Shown here one piece after another: positions 23,795-33,660 of a stretch of 64,000 nucleotides of DNA (position 1 is the first letter of the stretch; each line of letters opens with the position of its first letter). A program made the translations under genes and the position numbers. This DNA is from Candidatus Zymogenaceae bacterium (lineage in GTDB: Bacteria; Desulfobacterota; Zymogenia; Zymogenales; Zymogenaceae), in assembly GCA_016933535.1 (NCBI GenBank), contig JAFGAS010000068.1, positions 1 to 64,000 of the forward strand, written 5' to 3'. The notes below the pieces were generated by a model, which saw only the letters and a list, made by a program, of their open reading frames with translations, searched no databases and was not told the origin of the DNA.

Positions 23795-23821
23795 TTAGCA
23801 CTCTTATATGCGGAGTGCTAA
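23795..23821 (+). promoter_or_regulatory. CIRCE operator (HrcA-binding inverted repeat)
   Basis: TTAGCACTC-TTATATGCG-GAGTGCTAA, exact consensus, N9. Confidence 0.97.
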
Positions 23822-23844: not shown

Positions 23845-24882
23845 ATGGAGATAGAACTCAGCAACAGGGCAAAAACCGTCCTCTTTACCATAATAACGGA
23901 CTTCATCAGGACCGGTGATCCGGTCGGCTCACGGACGATATCCAAGAGAGGGGCACTGGACGTCTCTCCGGCCACGATACGCAATATTATGGCCGACCTT
24001 GAAGAGATCGGACTGCTGGTCCAACCCCACACCTCCGCGGGACGCGTTCCCACCGAACGCGCATACCGTTTCTACGTGGACAGCCTCGTCAAGGTTTCCG
24101 ACCTGACGACCTCCGAAGAACGGATGATAGAGAAGAACCTGAATCCGCCGTCGAGGGAATTCAAGGACGTGGTCAGGGAGACTTCCCGGGTGCTTTCCGA
24201 GATGTCCCGATGCGTTTCCATGGTCAGCACCCCCGGCTTTTCTGAGACACAATTCAAATATATCGATTTCGTGAGACTTTCGGAAAACAGGATCCTGGCT
24301 ATCCTCGTATCGAAAACCGGCATGATATATAACAAGCTGATCAGGGTCGAGGAAGAATTCAACCAGGAGAAACTTGCCTGGATGTCACGCTATCTCAACG
24401 ACATCCTCTCGGAACTTACGCTCAAAGACGTCAGACGCAAGATTATCCAGGAAATGCGAAGCGAAAAGAACCTCTATGATAATATCCTCATGAATGCCCT
24501 GAAAATGTCCCGGAACCTGTTTGATGCCGAAATTATCGATGACGAGCTTTTTATAGAGGGAAGCACCTATATCTTCGACTACCCGGAATTTACCGAGATC
24601 TCCAGGATGAAAGAGATATTCAAGACCTTTGAGAATAAGAATAATTTGATTAAATTACTTGATAAGGTGACGCGAGCCGACGGTGTAAAGGTGTATATTG
24701 GTTCCGAGACCAACATCCAGACCATGAGAGACTGTACTCTCGTGGCCTCACCGTACCGTAAAGAAGGCAATATTCTCGGAAGCATCGGTGTTATCGGTCC
24801 CACACGGATGGACTATGCGAAGGTAATACCGATCGTCGATTTTACCGCGCACCTGATCACGAGACTGCTGGATGAGGAGTAA
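23845..24882 (+). CDS. hrcA: Heat-inducible transcription repressor HrcA
   Basis: RTISKRGALDVSPATIRNIMADLEEIGLLVQPHTSAGRVPTERAYRFYVD. Confidence 0.97.
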   Translation: MEIELSNRAKTVLFTIITDFIRTGDPVGSRTISKRGALDVSPATIRNIMADLEEIGLLVQPHTSAGRVPTERAYRFYVDSLVKVSDLTTSEERMIEKNLNPPSREFKDVVRETSRVLSEMSRCVSMVSTPGFSETQFKYIDFVRLSENRILAILVSKTGMIYNKLIRVEEEFNQEKLAWMSRYLNDILSELTLKDVRRKIIQEMRSEKNLYDNILMNALKMSRNLFDAEIIDDELFIEGSTYIFDYPEFTEISRMKEIFKTFENKNNLIKLLDKVTRADGVKVYIGSETNIQTMRDCTLVASPYRKEGNILGSIGVIGPTRMDYAKVIPIVDFTAHLITRLLDEE

Positions 24883-24889
24883 CCGGATC

Positions 24890-25642
24890 ATGGCAGACAA
24901 GGAAAAGAAGAAGCACTCCACCGAACCGGTCAAAGAAGGCTATACCGATGAGGTGTCTCCGGAAGCGATAGACAGGACGGTATCGGAGATCGAAAATGCC
25001 GATTCGGATAATAACGAAAACGTGATGACCGAAAAAGCCGCTGCCGACGGCCGATCCGACGCCAAGAGGGGATCGGAAGAGATTCAGGATGAGCTCGACA
25101 AGGCGCGCGCCCAGGCCAAGGAAATGTACGAACGATATCTTCGATCGGCGGCCGACCTGGATAACTATAGAAAACGAATGACAAAGGAGGCGCAAGAAAG
25201 CCGGAAGTTCGCCAATGAAGAGCTGATCAAGGCGCTCATCCCGACCGTCGATAACCTTGAGCGAGCGCTTGCCCACAGCGAGGGAAGCTCCGATTCGGGG
25301 GCGTTTTTGGAGGGGATTAAGATGGTCCATAAGCAGTTCATGGATACCCTTGAAAAATTCGGCGTTGAGCAGATTGATTCTCTCGGCAAACCGTTTGATC
25401 CTAATTTCCATCAGGCCCTTATGCAGGTCAAAACGGACGAATTCCCTCCCAACACCGTTGTCTCCGAGGTCACGAAGGGGTACCTGCTTGCCGGCCGCCT
25501 CGTCAGACCGTCGATGGTTGGCGTTTCCGTACGTGAAGGACAGCAGCCCGCCCAGGGATCACCCTGGGGTGATGAGGATTTCCACAAAGAGGAAGACGTC
25601 CCCGATAAGAATAACGGGGATACGATAGATGACGAAGAATAA
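24890..25642 (+). CDS. grpE: Nucleotide exchange factor GrpE
   Basis: YLRSAADLDNYRKRMTKEAQESRKFANEELIKALIPTVDNLERAL; FGVEQIDSLGKPFDPNFHQA. Confidence 0.96.
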   Translation: MADKEKKKHSTEPVKEGYTDEVSPEAIDRTVSEIENADSDNNENVMTEKAAADGRSDAKRGSEEIQDELDKARAQAKEMYERYLRSAADLDNYRKRMTKEAQESRKFANEELIKALIPTVDNLERALAHSEGSSDSGAFLEGIKMVHKQFMDTLEKFGVEQIDSLGKPFDPNFHQALMQVKTDEFPPNTVVSEVTKGYLLAGRLVRPSMVGVSVREGQQPAQGSPWGDEDFHKEEDVPDKNNGDTIDDEE

Positions 25643-25679: not shown

Positions 25680-27623
25680 ATGTCAAAGGTTATCGGAATA
25701 GATTTGGGGACGACTAATTCTTGTGTAGCTGTCATGGAGGCCGGTGAGTCCAAGGTGATCACGAACTCCGAGGGCAGCCGCACCACTCCCTCGGTGGTTG
25801 CCTTTACCGACAGCAACGAGCGGATCGTGGGTCAGGTCGCCAAGAGACAGGCCATTACCAACCCCGAACGCACGATATATGCCGTTAAGCGACTGATCGG
25901 CAGGAAATATGGGGACCCGGAGGTACAGAAGGATATAAAGGTCTGCTCCTATAAGATCACGAGGGCGTCCAATGATGACGCTCAGGTTACCGTCGGGGAT
26001 AAGAACTACAGCCCCGCGGAAATATCGGCGATGATTCTTACCAAGATGAAGCAGACCGCTGAAGACTACCTCGGGCAACCGGTTACGGACGCGGTCGTTA
26101 CCGTCCCCGCGTACTTCAATGACAGCCAGCGTCAGGCCACTAAAGACGCCGGGAGGATTGCCGGGCTCAACGTGCTCAGGATCATCAACGAGCCGACGGC
26201 GGCCTCGCTGGCCTACGGGCTGGATAGGAAGAAGGATGAAAAGGTCGCCGTCTTTGACCTTGGGGGAGGGACGTTTGACATTTCAATCCTTGAACTCGGA
26301 GACGGTGTCTTCGAGGTCAAGTCGACCAACGGCGACACCCATCTTGGCGGAGAGGATTTCGACCAGAACATCATCGAATACCTTGCCGATGAATTCAAGA
26401 AGGATCAGGGGATCGACCTGAGGGGGGATAAGATGGCGCTCCAGCGGCTCAAGGAGGCCGGCGAGAAGGCGAAGATGGAGCTGTCTACCTCCATGGAGAC
26501 CGATATCAACCTCCCGTTTATCACGGCCGACAGCGCGGGCCCCAAACATCTGAACATAAAGCTGACCCGGGCCAAACTCGAGGCATTGGTCGACAACCTC
26601 ATCCAGAAACTCGACGGCCCGTGCCGTACGGCAATAAAGGACGCGGGGATGTCCTCGGCCGATATTAACGAGGTTATCCTCGTTGGCGGTATGACCCGCA
26701 TGCCCAAGGTTCAGCAAAAGGTCAAAGAGATCTTCGGCAAAGAACCCCATAGGGGTGTCAATCCCGACGAAGTCGTGGCTATGGGGGCGGCGATCCAGGG
26801 TGGGGTGCTCAGGGGCGAGGTGAAAGATGTACTGCTCTTAGACGTTACGCCGCTGTCACTGGGCATCGAGACCCTCGGCGGGGTCTCCACAAAGCTCATC
26901 GAGAAAAACACCACCATTCCCACCAAGAAGAGCCAGGTATTCTCCACCGCCGCCGACAGCCAGACGGCCGTCTCAATCCATGTGCTGCAGGGGGAGCGGG
27001 ATATGGCCTCCGACAACAAGACGATCGGTAGATTTGACCTGGTCGGCATACCGCCGGCGCCCCGCGGTATTCCCCAGATCGAGGTCACCTTTGATATCGA
27101 CGCCAACGGGATCATGCATGTCTCCGCCAAGGATCTCGGTACCGGCAAGGAGCAGTCGATCAGGATAACGGCATCCAGCGGCCTCTCAGAGCAGGAAATA
27201 CAGCAGTTCATAAAAGACGCGGAATCACATGCCGAAGAGGATAAGAGTAAACGGGATCTGGTCGAGGCGCGCAACGCGGCCGACGGACTGGTATATACCA
27301 CCGAAAAATCGCTCGCTGAATTTTCAAGCAAGCTCGACCCGGCGGCCAAGTCCGAGGTGGAGAGTGCGCTGGCGAAGGTGAAAAAGGAGATGGAGGGGAC
27401 CGACAGTGAGGCCATCAAGTCGGCCACCGAAGAGCTTACCAAGGCGGCGCACAAACTGGCCGAGATGATCTATGCCCAGGCGGCATCAAGCGCCGGCCCG
27501 CAGGGGCCCGAGGCGGGGGCGGGGCCGGGGCCGGAAGACGCACCGGGGCAGGGCGGCTCCGGGCCGAAACCCGGGGACGGGGACGACGTTGTTGACGCCG
27601 ATTTCGAAGAAGTCAAGAAATAG
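25680..27623 (+). CDS. dnaK: Chaperone DnaK
   Basis: [42 protein letters not shown]. Confidence 0.99.
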
Positions 27624-27823: not shown

Positions 27824-28936
27824 GTGGAAAAAGCCGACTACTACGATATACTCGGCGTTCAGAAAAATATCGGCCAGGAAGAGATAAAGAAGGCATACCG
27901 AAAACAGGCCCTTAAGTATCACCCGGATAAGAACGCCGGGGATAAAGCAGCCGAAGAACGGTTCAAAGAGATCAACGAGGCTTATGTCGTCCTTTCGGAC
28001 CCCGAAAAGCGGGATCTCTACGACCGCTACGGTCACGCGGCCTTCTCGGGCGGTGGGGCCGATGGATTTCGCGATTTCGATTTCGGTTTCCGTGGATTCG
28101 AGGATATCTTTTCGGATGTCTTCGGTGATATCTTCGGCATGGGCCGCAGGGGAGGCCGCGGCGCCCGCGGAACGGACCTGCGGTACAACCTTACCATTGA
28201 TTTTACCGAGGCGGTCTTCGGCGTGGAGGCAAAGATCCAGGTGCCGCGGCATGAGGCCTGCGCGGCATGCGGCGGCAGCGGGGCCGAGCCGCCCACGAAA
28301 CCCGAGACCTGCCCAGCGTGCCGGGGTACAGGACAGATCAGAACCCAGCAGGGCTTCTTTGCCGTTTCGCGAACGTGCTCCCATTGTCGCGGAACGGGCA
28401 GGTTTATCAAGAGTCCCTGCAAAGAATGCCGGGGCTCCGGGAAGATGAAGAAGACCAGGACCCTTACGGTCAAGGTTCCGCATGGTGTGGAGATGGGGAC
28501 CAGGCTCAGGCTTTCCGGAGAAGGAGAAAACGGCAGCGGAGGGGCCCCGCCTGGTGACCTCTATGTGGTTATCGAGGTCAAACCGCATAAGATTTTCGAG
28601 CGAGAGGGAAACGACATCATTGTCATCGTCCCGATCACGTTTCCGGAGGCGGCGCTTGGCGCCGACATAGAAGTGCCGACGATCGAGGGTCTGGTGAAGA
28701 TGAAGGTAAAACCCGGAACACAATCGGGGGAGACGCACATCATCAGGGGTAAGGGAGTCCCCCATCTTTCGGGCTATGGCCGCGGCGATCAGCACGTCAT
28801 TGTTCGTGTAGAGACACCCAAGAAATTAAGTCGTCGGCAACGAGATATCCTCGAAGAGTTCTCGCGGGAGAGTCGAGCCGAGACACACCCTGAAACCCGG
28901 GGATTCTTCGAAAAGGTAAAGGAGATATTCCAATAG
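27824..28936 (+). CDS. dnaJ: Chaperone DnaJ
   Basis: J-domain [23 protein letters not shown]; CxxCxGxG zinc repeats. Confidence 0.98.
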
Positions 28937-31585: not shown

Positions 31586-32440
31586 TTATTCCTGCAGGCC
31601 CGCCCACTGTTCAATGGCGGGATTCTTTCTCAGCTTTTTGAGGGCGCCTTCTTCAATTTGACGGATTCGCTCACGGGAGATGCCGAAGGTATCGGCAATA
31701 TCTGCCAACGTCTTGGGCTTGGTCGCCATTATCCTGTGTTGAATGATATAGGTTTCCTTTTCATTCAACAGGTTCAGGGCCTTTTTGATATCCGTCTTGA
31801 GCCGGGCCGTCTCCTGCTCATCGATCAGGGCAGCTTCCTGGGATGGATCCTCCGAGACGAAATCGATATAGGTTGCATCCTCGCCTTCTTTGACGGCGGT
31901 GTTCAGCGAGAGATCGCGGCCCGAGAGCCTGCCGTTCATGTCCCGGACCTCCCGGTACTTCACGTGAAGGGTATCGGCGATGGCGCCGATATCTTCGTCC
32001 GTAGGGGCGTCAATCCCGAGTTTCTTCTTGACCTGTCCCATCTTGTAGAAAAGCTTCTTCTGCGCCTGGGTCGTGCCGATCTTCACAAGGCTCCACGACT
32101 TGATGATAAAGTTCTGGATATAGGCCCTGATCCACCATACCGCGTATGAGATAAGCCGGAAGCCTTTTTGCGGATCGAACTTCTTGACGGCCTGCATGAG
32201 ACCGATATTACCTTCCTGGATAAGGTCCATGATCTTGAGGCCGTAATCGGAGTATTCATAGGCGACCTTGACCACAAAGCGGAGGTTTGATACGACCAGC
32301 TTATGGGCCGCTTCGATATCACTGTTTTCCCGCCACCTCACGCCAAGGTCGTATTCCTCTTCTTTTGTGAGGAGGGGAAATCTATTTATCTTATGAATAT
32401 AGAGCGTCAGGGCGCTCGTTTTTTCTGGCAGCATTTTCAT
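31586..32440 (-). CDS. rpoH: RNA polymerase sigma factor RpoH (sigma-32)
   Basis: SNLRFVVKVAYEYSDYGLKIMDLIQEGNIGLMQAVKKFDPQKGFRLISYAVWWIRAYIQNFI; RpoH-box-like AQKKLFYKM; start at 32440 has AAAGGAGATTGGGAATG SD. Confidence 0.92.
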   Translation of the reverse strand: MKMLPEKTSALTLYIHKINRFPLLTKEEEYDLGVRWRENSDIEAAHKLVVSNLRFVVKVAYEYSDYGLKIMDLIQEGNIGLMQAVKKFDPQKGFRLISYAVWWIRAYIQNFIIKSWSLVKIGTTQAQKKLFYKMGQVKKKLGIDAPTDEDIGAIADTLHVKYREVRDMNGRLSGRDLSLNTAVKEGEDATYIDFVSEDPSQEAALIDEQETARLKTDIKKALNLLNEKETYIIQHRIMATKPKTLADIADTFGISRERIRQIEEGALKKLRKNPAIEQWAGLQE

Positions 32441-32499
32441 TCCCAATCTCCTTTCGTGCCTTTTCGGGGTATATGTGGAATCGTTCATACCCCGGTTTG

Positions 32500-32526
32500 T
32501 TAGCACTCGATCCTAATGAGTGCTAA
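32500..32526 (-). promoter_or_regulatory. CIRCE operator upstream of rpoH
   Basis: TTAGCACTC-GATCCTAAT-GAGTGCTAA, exact consensus arms. Confidence 0.96.
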
Positions 32527-32554
32527 TTATACCTCGTAAAGATAATGAAATCAA
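32526..32554 (-). promoter_or_regulatory. rpoH promoter TTGATT-N17-TATAAT abutting CIRCE
   Basis: Minus strand TTGATTTCATTATCTTTACGAGGTATAATTAGCACTC. Confidence 0.75.
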
Positions 32555-32685
32555 GAACAATTTATCTGTGGGACGCGTTTTCCATATAAAAGGGTATTTC
32601 ATTGACATAGAGTCCCTATTAGTATACATTACTTCTTATATACTAATTAAGATGAAGAAATAAGAGAAACGTTTCATCCCTAAAA

Positions 32686-33660
32686 ATGAGATTCTTCAAG
32701 AAAAATATTACATCACCCTTTGACTACCGGACGCTGTATAAGTATCTTCCCGATAGGTACCGCCTCAAGGTCGGGCTGGCCCTCGGCAGTGGCGGTGCCC
32801 GGGGATTGACCCATCTGGGAGTAATCAGTGCCCTGACGTCTGCGGGGGTAAAAATCGACTTTGTTTCGGGGACGAGCGTGGGGGCGCTCGTCGGCGCGTT
32901 TCTTGCGGCCGGAAAGCTCGATGATCTCATCGCGTTCACAGCCCCCCTCACGCTCAAAGAGTCGCTGAAGATGGCCGACATCATGTTCCCCACCAGCGGA
33001 CTTATCGAGGGAAAGAAGATCGAGCAATTCCTCCGTAAACACCTCGGTACCGTGAAGATCGAAGATTTGCCGGTTCCTTTTGCGTGCGTCGCGACGAATT
33101 TCTATACCGGACAAGAAGTGCTTATAAACAGGGGCGATCTTGTGACGGCCGTGCGGGCCTCCATCTCAATCCCTGGTGTATTCAAGCCGGTCGCCGCCGA
33201 TGGCATGCTCCTGGTGGACGGAGGTGTGGTAAATCCGGTGCCGGTCCAGGTAGTCAGGGACCTCGGTGCCGAATTCATCATTGCCGTAGATATCAGCCCG
33301 GAAATCGCCAATAAAATGACGGTCCAACACCCTATTATCGATCCGGGCCAAGGGAGCGGGAAATCCAGAAAGGGAGAGGCCAGACTGCCCAATATTTTCG
33401 ACATTATTATGGGATCGATCATGATCATGGAATCCCAGATCGTCGATATGCGTATGAAGACCGAGTTGCCCGATGTCATCATAAGTCCGTCGGTATCCGA
33501 CATCGGAACATACGATTTTCATCGCTATCGGGAAGGGGTAGAACGGGGAGAATCCGCAGCGGGTCAGGTTATTTCTCAGATAAGGAAATACATCGGCCTG
33601 TATCGAAACATATCACAACAGAAGTCGGGGGGAAGGCGCCCCGACGGTATATTAACGTAG
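32686..33660 (+). CDS. Patatin-like phospholipase (RssA-like)
   Basis: ALGSGGARGLTHLGVI, VSGTSVGALVGAF, VDGGVVNPVPV. Confidence 0.92.
   Translation: MRFFKKNITSPFDYRTLYKYLPDRYRLKVGLALGSGGARGLTHLGVISALTSAGVKIDFVSGTSVGALVGAFLAAGKLDDLIAFTAPLTLKESLKMADIMFPTSGLIEGKKIEQFLRKHLGTVKIEDLPVPFACVATNFYTGQEVLINRGDLVTAVRASISIPGVFKPVAADGMLLVDGGVVNPVPVQVVRDLGAEFIIAVDISPEIANKMTVQHPIIDPGQGSGKSRKGEARLPNIFDIIMGSIMIMESQIVDMRMKTELPDVIISPSVSDIGTYDFHRYREGVERGESAAGQVISQIRKYIGLYRNISQQKSGGRRPDGILT

Follow-up and report, generated by a model that had tools for sequence, protein, structure and literature searches.

Predicted HrcA control of the heat-shock sigma factor gene rpoH through a promoter-overlapping CIRCE operator in a Zymogenaceae bacterium and its relatives

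Accounts of heat-shock control usually treat HrcA, the CIRCE-binding repressor, and sigma-32 (RpoH) as separate solutions. The heat-shock sigma factor of Geobacter sulfurreducens was reportedly the subject of a study by Ueki and Lovley in 2007. A perfect CIRCE operator was predicted at -51 of the rpoH gene of that organism (Rodionov et al. 2004, Table 8, PMC545781), which also has CIRCE sites at hrcA-grpE-dnaK-dnaJ and at groESL (PMC545781); the lists given in the same paper for G. metallireducens and for Desulfuromonas hold no rpoH site. The idea of HrcA control of rpoH is, in short, not new, having been put forward as a prediction for G. sulfurreducens more than 20 years ago, and a preliminary description of the locus analyzed here was right to allow that it might already have been predicted in related bacteria. 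No experimental test of HrcA acting on rpoH was found in the open literature searched. The finding reported below is sound and ordinary in kind, and is slightly extended by a survey: what is added is breadth within the phylum, a fixed geometry of promoter and operator, and co-occurrence of the site with HrcA.

The rpoH promoter, its CIRCE operator and the chaperone operon

The window (the whole 64,000-nucleotide stretch of Candidatus Zymogenaceae DNA that was analyzed) holds rpoH on its minus strand, preceded by the following elements.

32549..32554, minus strand: -35 element of the rpoH promoter, TTGATT, an N17 spacer away from the -10
32526..32531, minus strand: -10 element of the rpoH promoter, TATAAT; base 32526 is common to CIRCE
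32500..32526, minus strand: CIRCE operator of rpoH, TTAGCACTC-N9-GAGTGCTAA, a perfect inverted repeat matching at 18/18 positions
32448..32454, minus strand: Shine-Dalgarno sequence AAAGGAG of rpoH, as read in the sequence, 7 nt upstream of the ATG at 32440
31586..32440, minus strand: rpoH, encoding the heat-shock sigma factor sigma-32 (TIGR02392, above cut-off)

The rpoH product scores 341.1 bits against the NCBIfam equivalog TIGR02392 (cut-off 323.1) over residues 10-272, and a search of the genome found this to be its single such gene. Its RpoH box reads QKKLFYKMGQ in the translation, matched by eye to the QRKLFFNLR-like motif. The operator, TTAGCACTCATTAGGATCGAGTGCTAA on the minus strand (32526-32500), begins with the T that ends TATAAT, so that the -10 element and CIRCE overlap by one base; 59 nt separate CIRCE from the rpoH ATG. 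The only promoter-like site directed at rpoH in the intergenic region is the one that CIRCE overlaps. The CIRCE lies where binding of a repressor would prevent initiation, at the -10 element of the promoter of a heat-shock gene.

These coordinates bear out the layout proposed in the preliminary description, which had a TTGATT-N17-TATAAT promoter, a CIRCE operator, a leader of about 60 nt with a good Shine-Dalgarno sequence, and the same operator ahead of hrcA at 23795. They refine it in a single point: where it has CIRCE immediately following the -10, the two in fact share a base. CIRCE matches with ≤3 mismatches number 2 in the window, against 0.01 expected from shuffled windows; beyond these rpoH and hrcA sites, a search of the 2.94-Mb assembly yielded none at this threshold. 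The possibility that the rpoH leader holds an RNA thermometer or an element known to Rfam was considered and rejected, the Rfam search being without a match and the fold unremarkable.

The second site heads the chaperone operon:

23795..23821, plus strand: CIRCE operator of the hrcA operon, a perfect match
23845..24882, plus strand: hrcA, encoding the CIRCE-binding repressor (TIGR00331, above cut-off)
24872..25642, plus strand: grpE (PF01025), its start unfixed at 24872 or 24887
25680..27623, plus strand: dnaK (TIGR02350, above cut-off)
27824..28936, plus strand: dnaJ (TIGR02349, above cut-off)

The hrcA product reaches 340 bits against TIGR00331 (cut-off 197), and HrcA is thus encoded in the same genome as the operator, about 8.6 kb from rpoH. 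A search for groEL in this assembly (89% complete) found none, which is read as an assembly gap because G001 and G002, the two closest relatives with near-complete genomes, both carry a CIRCE ahead of groEL. Each of these two genomes has three CIRCE sites, at groEL, hrcA and rpoH, with hrcA and rpoH on one contig and within ~9 kb of each other. The groEL-associated site lies ~450-480 nt upstream of the gene, a distance consistent with its placement ahead of groES.

Upstream of rpoH lies a neighboring promoter that faces the other way.

TTGACA (32602)-N17-TACATT (32630): divergent promoter of a patatin-family gene (32686-33660)

Its -10 element is overlapped by a perfect inverted repeat, ATTAGTATA-N12-TATACTAAT (32618-32647), possibly an operator for another regulator. 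No further copies of this repeat were found in the genome, and the nearest sequences in two relatives differ at 3 positions, which is chance level.

CIRCE upstream of rpoH in the phylum and its co-occurrence with hrcA

A scan of related genomes for CIRCE upstream of rpoH had been proposed as a check when the locus was first described. An RpoH search of 395 genomes of the phylum picked out 76 genomes, which together have 77 close rpoH genes (E ≤ 1e-74); the upstream regions of these genes were scanned for CIRCE with distances taken from the aligned start; in one genome (G062) that region covers just 98 nt ahead of the rpoH start. CIRCE with ≤2 mismatches is present upstream of 53 of these 77 genes, 13-63 nt from the rpoH start in 52 genes and 170 nt from it in one. 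The distribution is bimodal: upstream of the 24 remaining genes, no match has fewer than 6 mismatches. An upstream CIRCE is likewise absent from a more distant set of rpoH genes (0/27; other RpoH of the phylum, Magnetococcales, Alphaproteobacteria). The site is also present in the named public Deltaproteobacteria MAGs RBG_16_54_18, RBG_13_52_11 and CSMAG_1136, which were matched to surveyed genomes (G142, G259, G085) and are not counted twice.

Two departures from the common pattern were observed. The 170-nt distance, unlike all others, belongs to G279 (L197), whose leader may be long. The two close rpoH copies of G152 (L178 and L188) both have a CIRCE with an identical change (TTAGCAGTC) that recurs in the related L013 and L189, a lineage-specific variant of the operator.

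The best -35/-10 pair places its -10 anywhere from 4 nt inside to 6 nt before CIRCE upstream of 47 of the 53 genes, while 200 rounds with base-shuffled upstream sequences gave a mean of 9.5 and a maximum of 19. In most of these genes the predicted transcription start therefore falls inside the operator or at its edge, which is the layout expected for steric repression.

Co-occurrence of the rpoH site with HrcA was computed over the same genomes, 57 of 76 of which have a detectable hrcA. CIRCE precedes rpoH in 51 of the 58 rows (one rpoH gene each) with hrcA, leaving seven hrcA-bearing rows without the site, and in 2 of the 19 rows in which hrcA was not found. These two come from draft assemblies, G259 (86% complete) and G167 (720 contigs), which may simply fail to include hrcA. 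The 17 remaining HrcA-less genomes hold no CIRCE anywhere at ≤2 mismatches. Fifteen of the 17 constitute one clade, which is sister to the family of the window in the RpoH tree.

L115-L118, L120, L122-L125, L135, L136, L138, L165, L167, L010: rpoH rows of the sister clade, without CIRCE and without hrcA

A CTTGAC-type promoter element lies upstream of most rpoH genes of this clade, and several also show an opposite-facing TGTCAAG, in the manner of a divergent promoter pair.

With 15 HrcA-less genomes in a single clade, the counts of hrcA and CIRCE are not independent. The two traits (hrcA, and CIRCE at rpoH) undergo 5-6 changes on the RpoH tree, providing only 4-5 independent contrasts, and a sign test of independent hrcA/CIRCE losses is not significant with only 4-5 independent pairs. 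Because these pairs are too few, the Fisher p value of 1e-9 for co-occurrence is not taken as proof. The genomes surveyed point in a clear direction, with moderate statistical weight.

Proposed control of rpoH by HrcA

The reading that we favor, at a probability of roughly 0.87, is that HrcA represses rpoH through its CIRCE and that heat would derepress rpoH together with the chaperone operon. That HrcA may control rpoH had been suggested for this locus from the outset, and the placement of the operator, its conserved position and the co-occurrence with hrcA support the suggestion at the level of sequence. The anatomy of the locus and the conservation of the position and sequence of the site are, like that co-occurrence, computed here; HrcA binding, repression, the link to GroEL and the downstream RpoH regulon we infer, as follows. 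A vegetative (sigma-70-type) promoter would serve rpoH, its predicted start lying inside the perfect CIRCE. In unstressed cells, HrcA dimers on this operator would obstruct RNA polymerase, and sigma-32 would stay low. Heat or unfolded protein would occupy GroEL, to which HrcA activity is linked in other bacteria, and HrcA activity would be lost; rpoH, hrcA-grpE-dnaK-dnaJ and, judging by the close relatives, groESL would be jointly derepressed, and the extra sigma-32 would switch on its own regulon. A search of this genome and of the two near-complete relatives for strict sigma-32 promoters (CTTGAA-N12-16-CCCCAT) turned up sites, none of them before chaperone or protease genes, the motif being that of the E. 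coli type, from which the preference of this lineage may differ.

That the site is a relic or a chance copy with no effect on rpoH is very improbable: some HrcA-bearing relatives do lack the rpoH site, as such a view would allow, but a perfect match over 18 positions stands against 0.01 expected per window, and many families of the phylum preserve both the position and the sequence of the site. Only a little less improbable is the notion that CIRCE acts mainly in RNA: together with another hairpin it would fold the rpoH leader, and translation or the stability of the mRNA would respond to temperature, in the manner of the E. coli rpoH leader.

32465..32494: second hairpin of the rpoH leader, CGGGGTAT-N14-ATACCCCG, an inverted repeat between CIRCE and the Shine-Dalgarno sequence

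The presence of this second repeat speaks for an action in RNA, as does a fold of the leader that is slightly better than that of its shuffles (z -1.77, 11/200 as good). However, G001 and G002 show no such hairpin in their leaders, the leader of the window's rpoH finds no counterpart in Rfam, the Shine-Dalgarno sequence is not strongly paired in the predicted fold, and the letters of CIRCE are conserved beyond what pairing would demand, almost only in genomes with hrcA. A further alternative, compatible with HrcA repression of rpoH, would have HrcA trim the basal level only, with heat control of sigma-32 resting chiefly on the stability and activity of RpoH (DnaK, FtsH) or on another promoter. 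Control of RpoH stability and activity is known in E. coli, and the hrcA-less relatives retain rpoH with their CTTGAC-type element and no CIRCE; against this stands the single promoter-like site toward rpoH, the very site that CIRCE overlaps. It is a possible account, if a rather doubtful one.

With HrcA repression of rpoH as the preferred reading, a repressor site on a sigma-factor gene would place HrcA and sigma-32 in series, and loss of HrcA activity would raise the chaperones directly and also indirectly, through sigma-32. The survey suggests that many members of the phylum share this design, so that it could be tested in many organisms; the published prediction had named one species. We lean toward a phylum-wide HrcA-to-rpoH wiring of fixed promoter-operator design, lost from rpoH along with hrcA, which would make for a conserved two-step cascade instead of parallel systems.

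Comparison with known systems

Escherichia coli rpoH encodes a member of the same sigma factor family; HrcA is not known from E. coli, in which sigma-32 is controlled through several promoters, through a thermosensor in the mRNA and through proteolysis. Bacillus subtilis and many other bacteria share the placement of HrcA/CIRCE beside the promoters of chaperone operons (groESL, hrcA-grpE-dnaK-dnaJ). We know of no sigma-32 in B. subtilis, and the locus described here differs from that arrangement in having as an extra CIRCE target the gene of a positive heat-shock regulator. The closest likeness is with G. sulfurreducens, in which TTAGCACTC-N9-GAGTGCTAA likewise lies shortly upstream of rpoH and CIRCE precedes hrcA-grpE-dnaK-dnaJ; the Zymogenaceae bacterium belongs to another lineage, the -10 element and the operator of its rpoH have one base in common, and its hrcA and rpoH are neighbors at ~8.6 kb.
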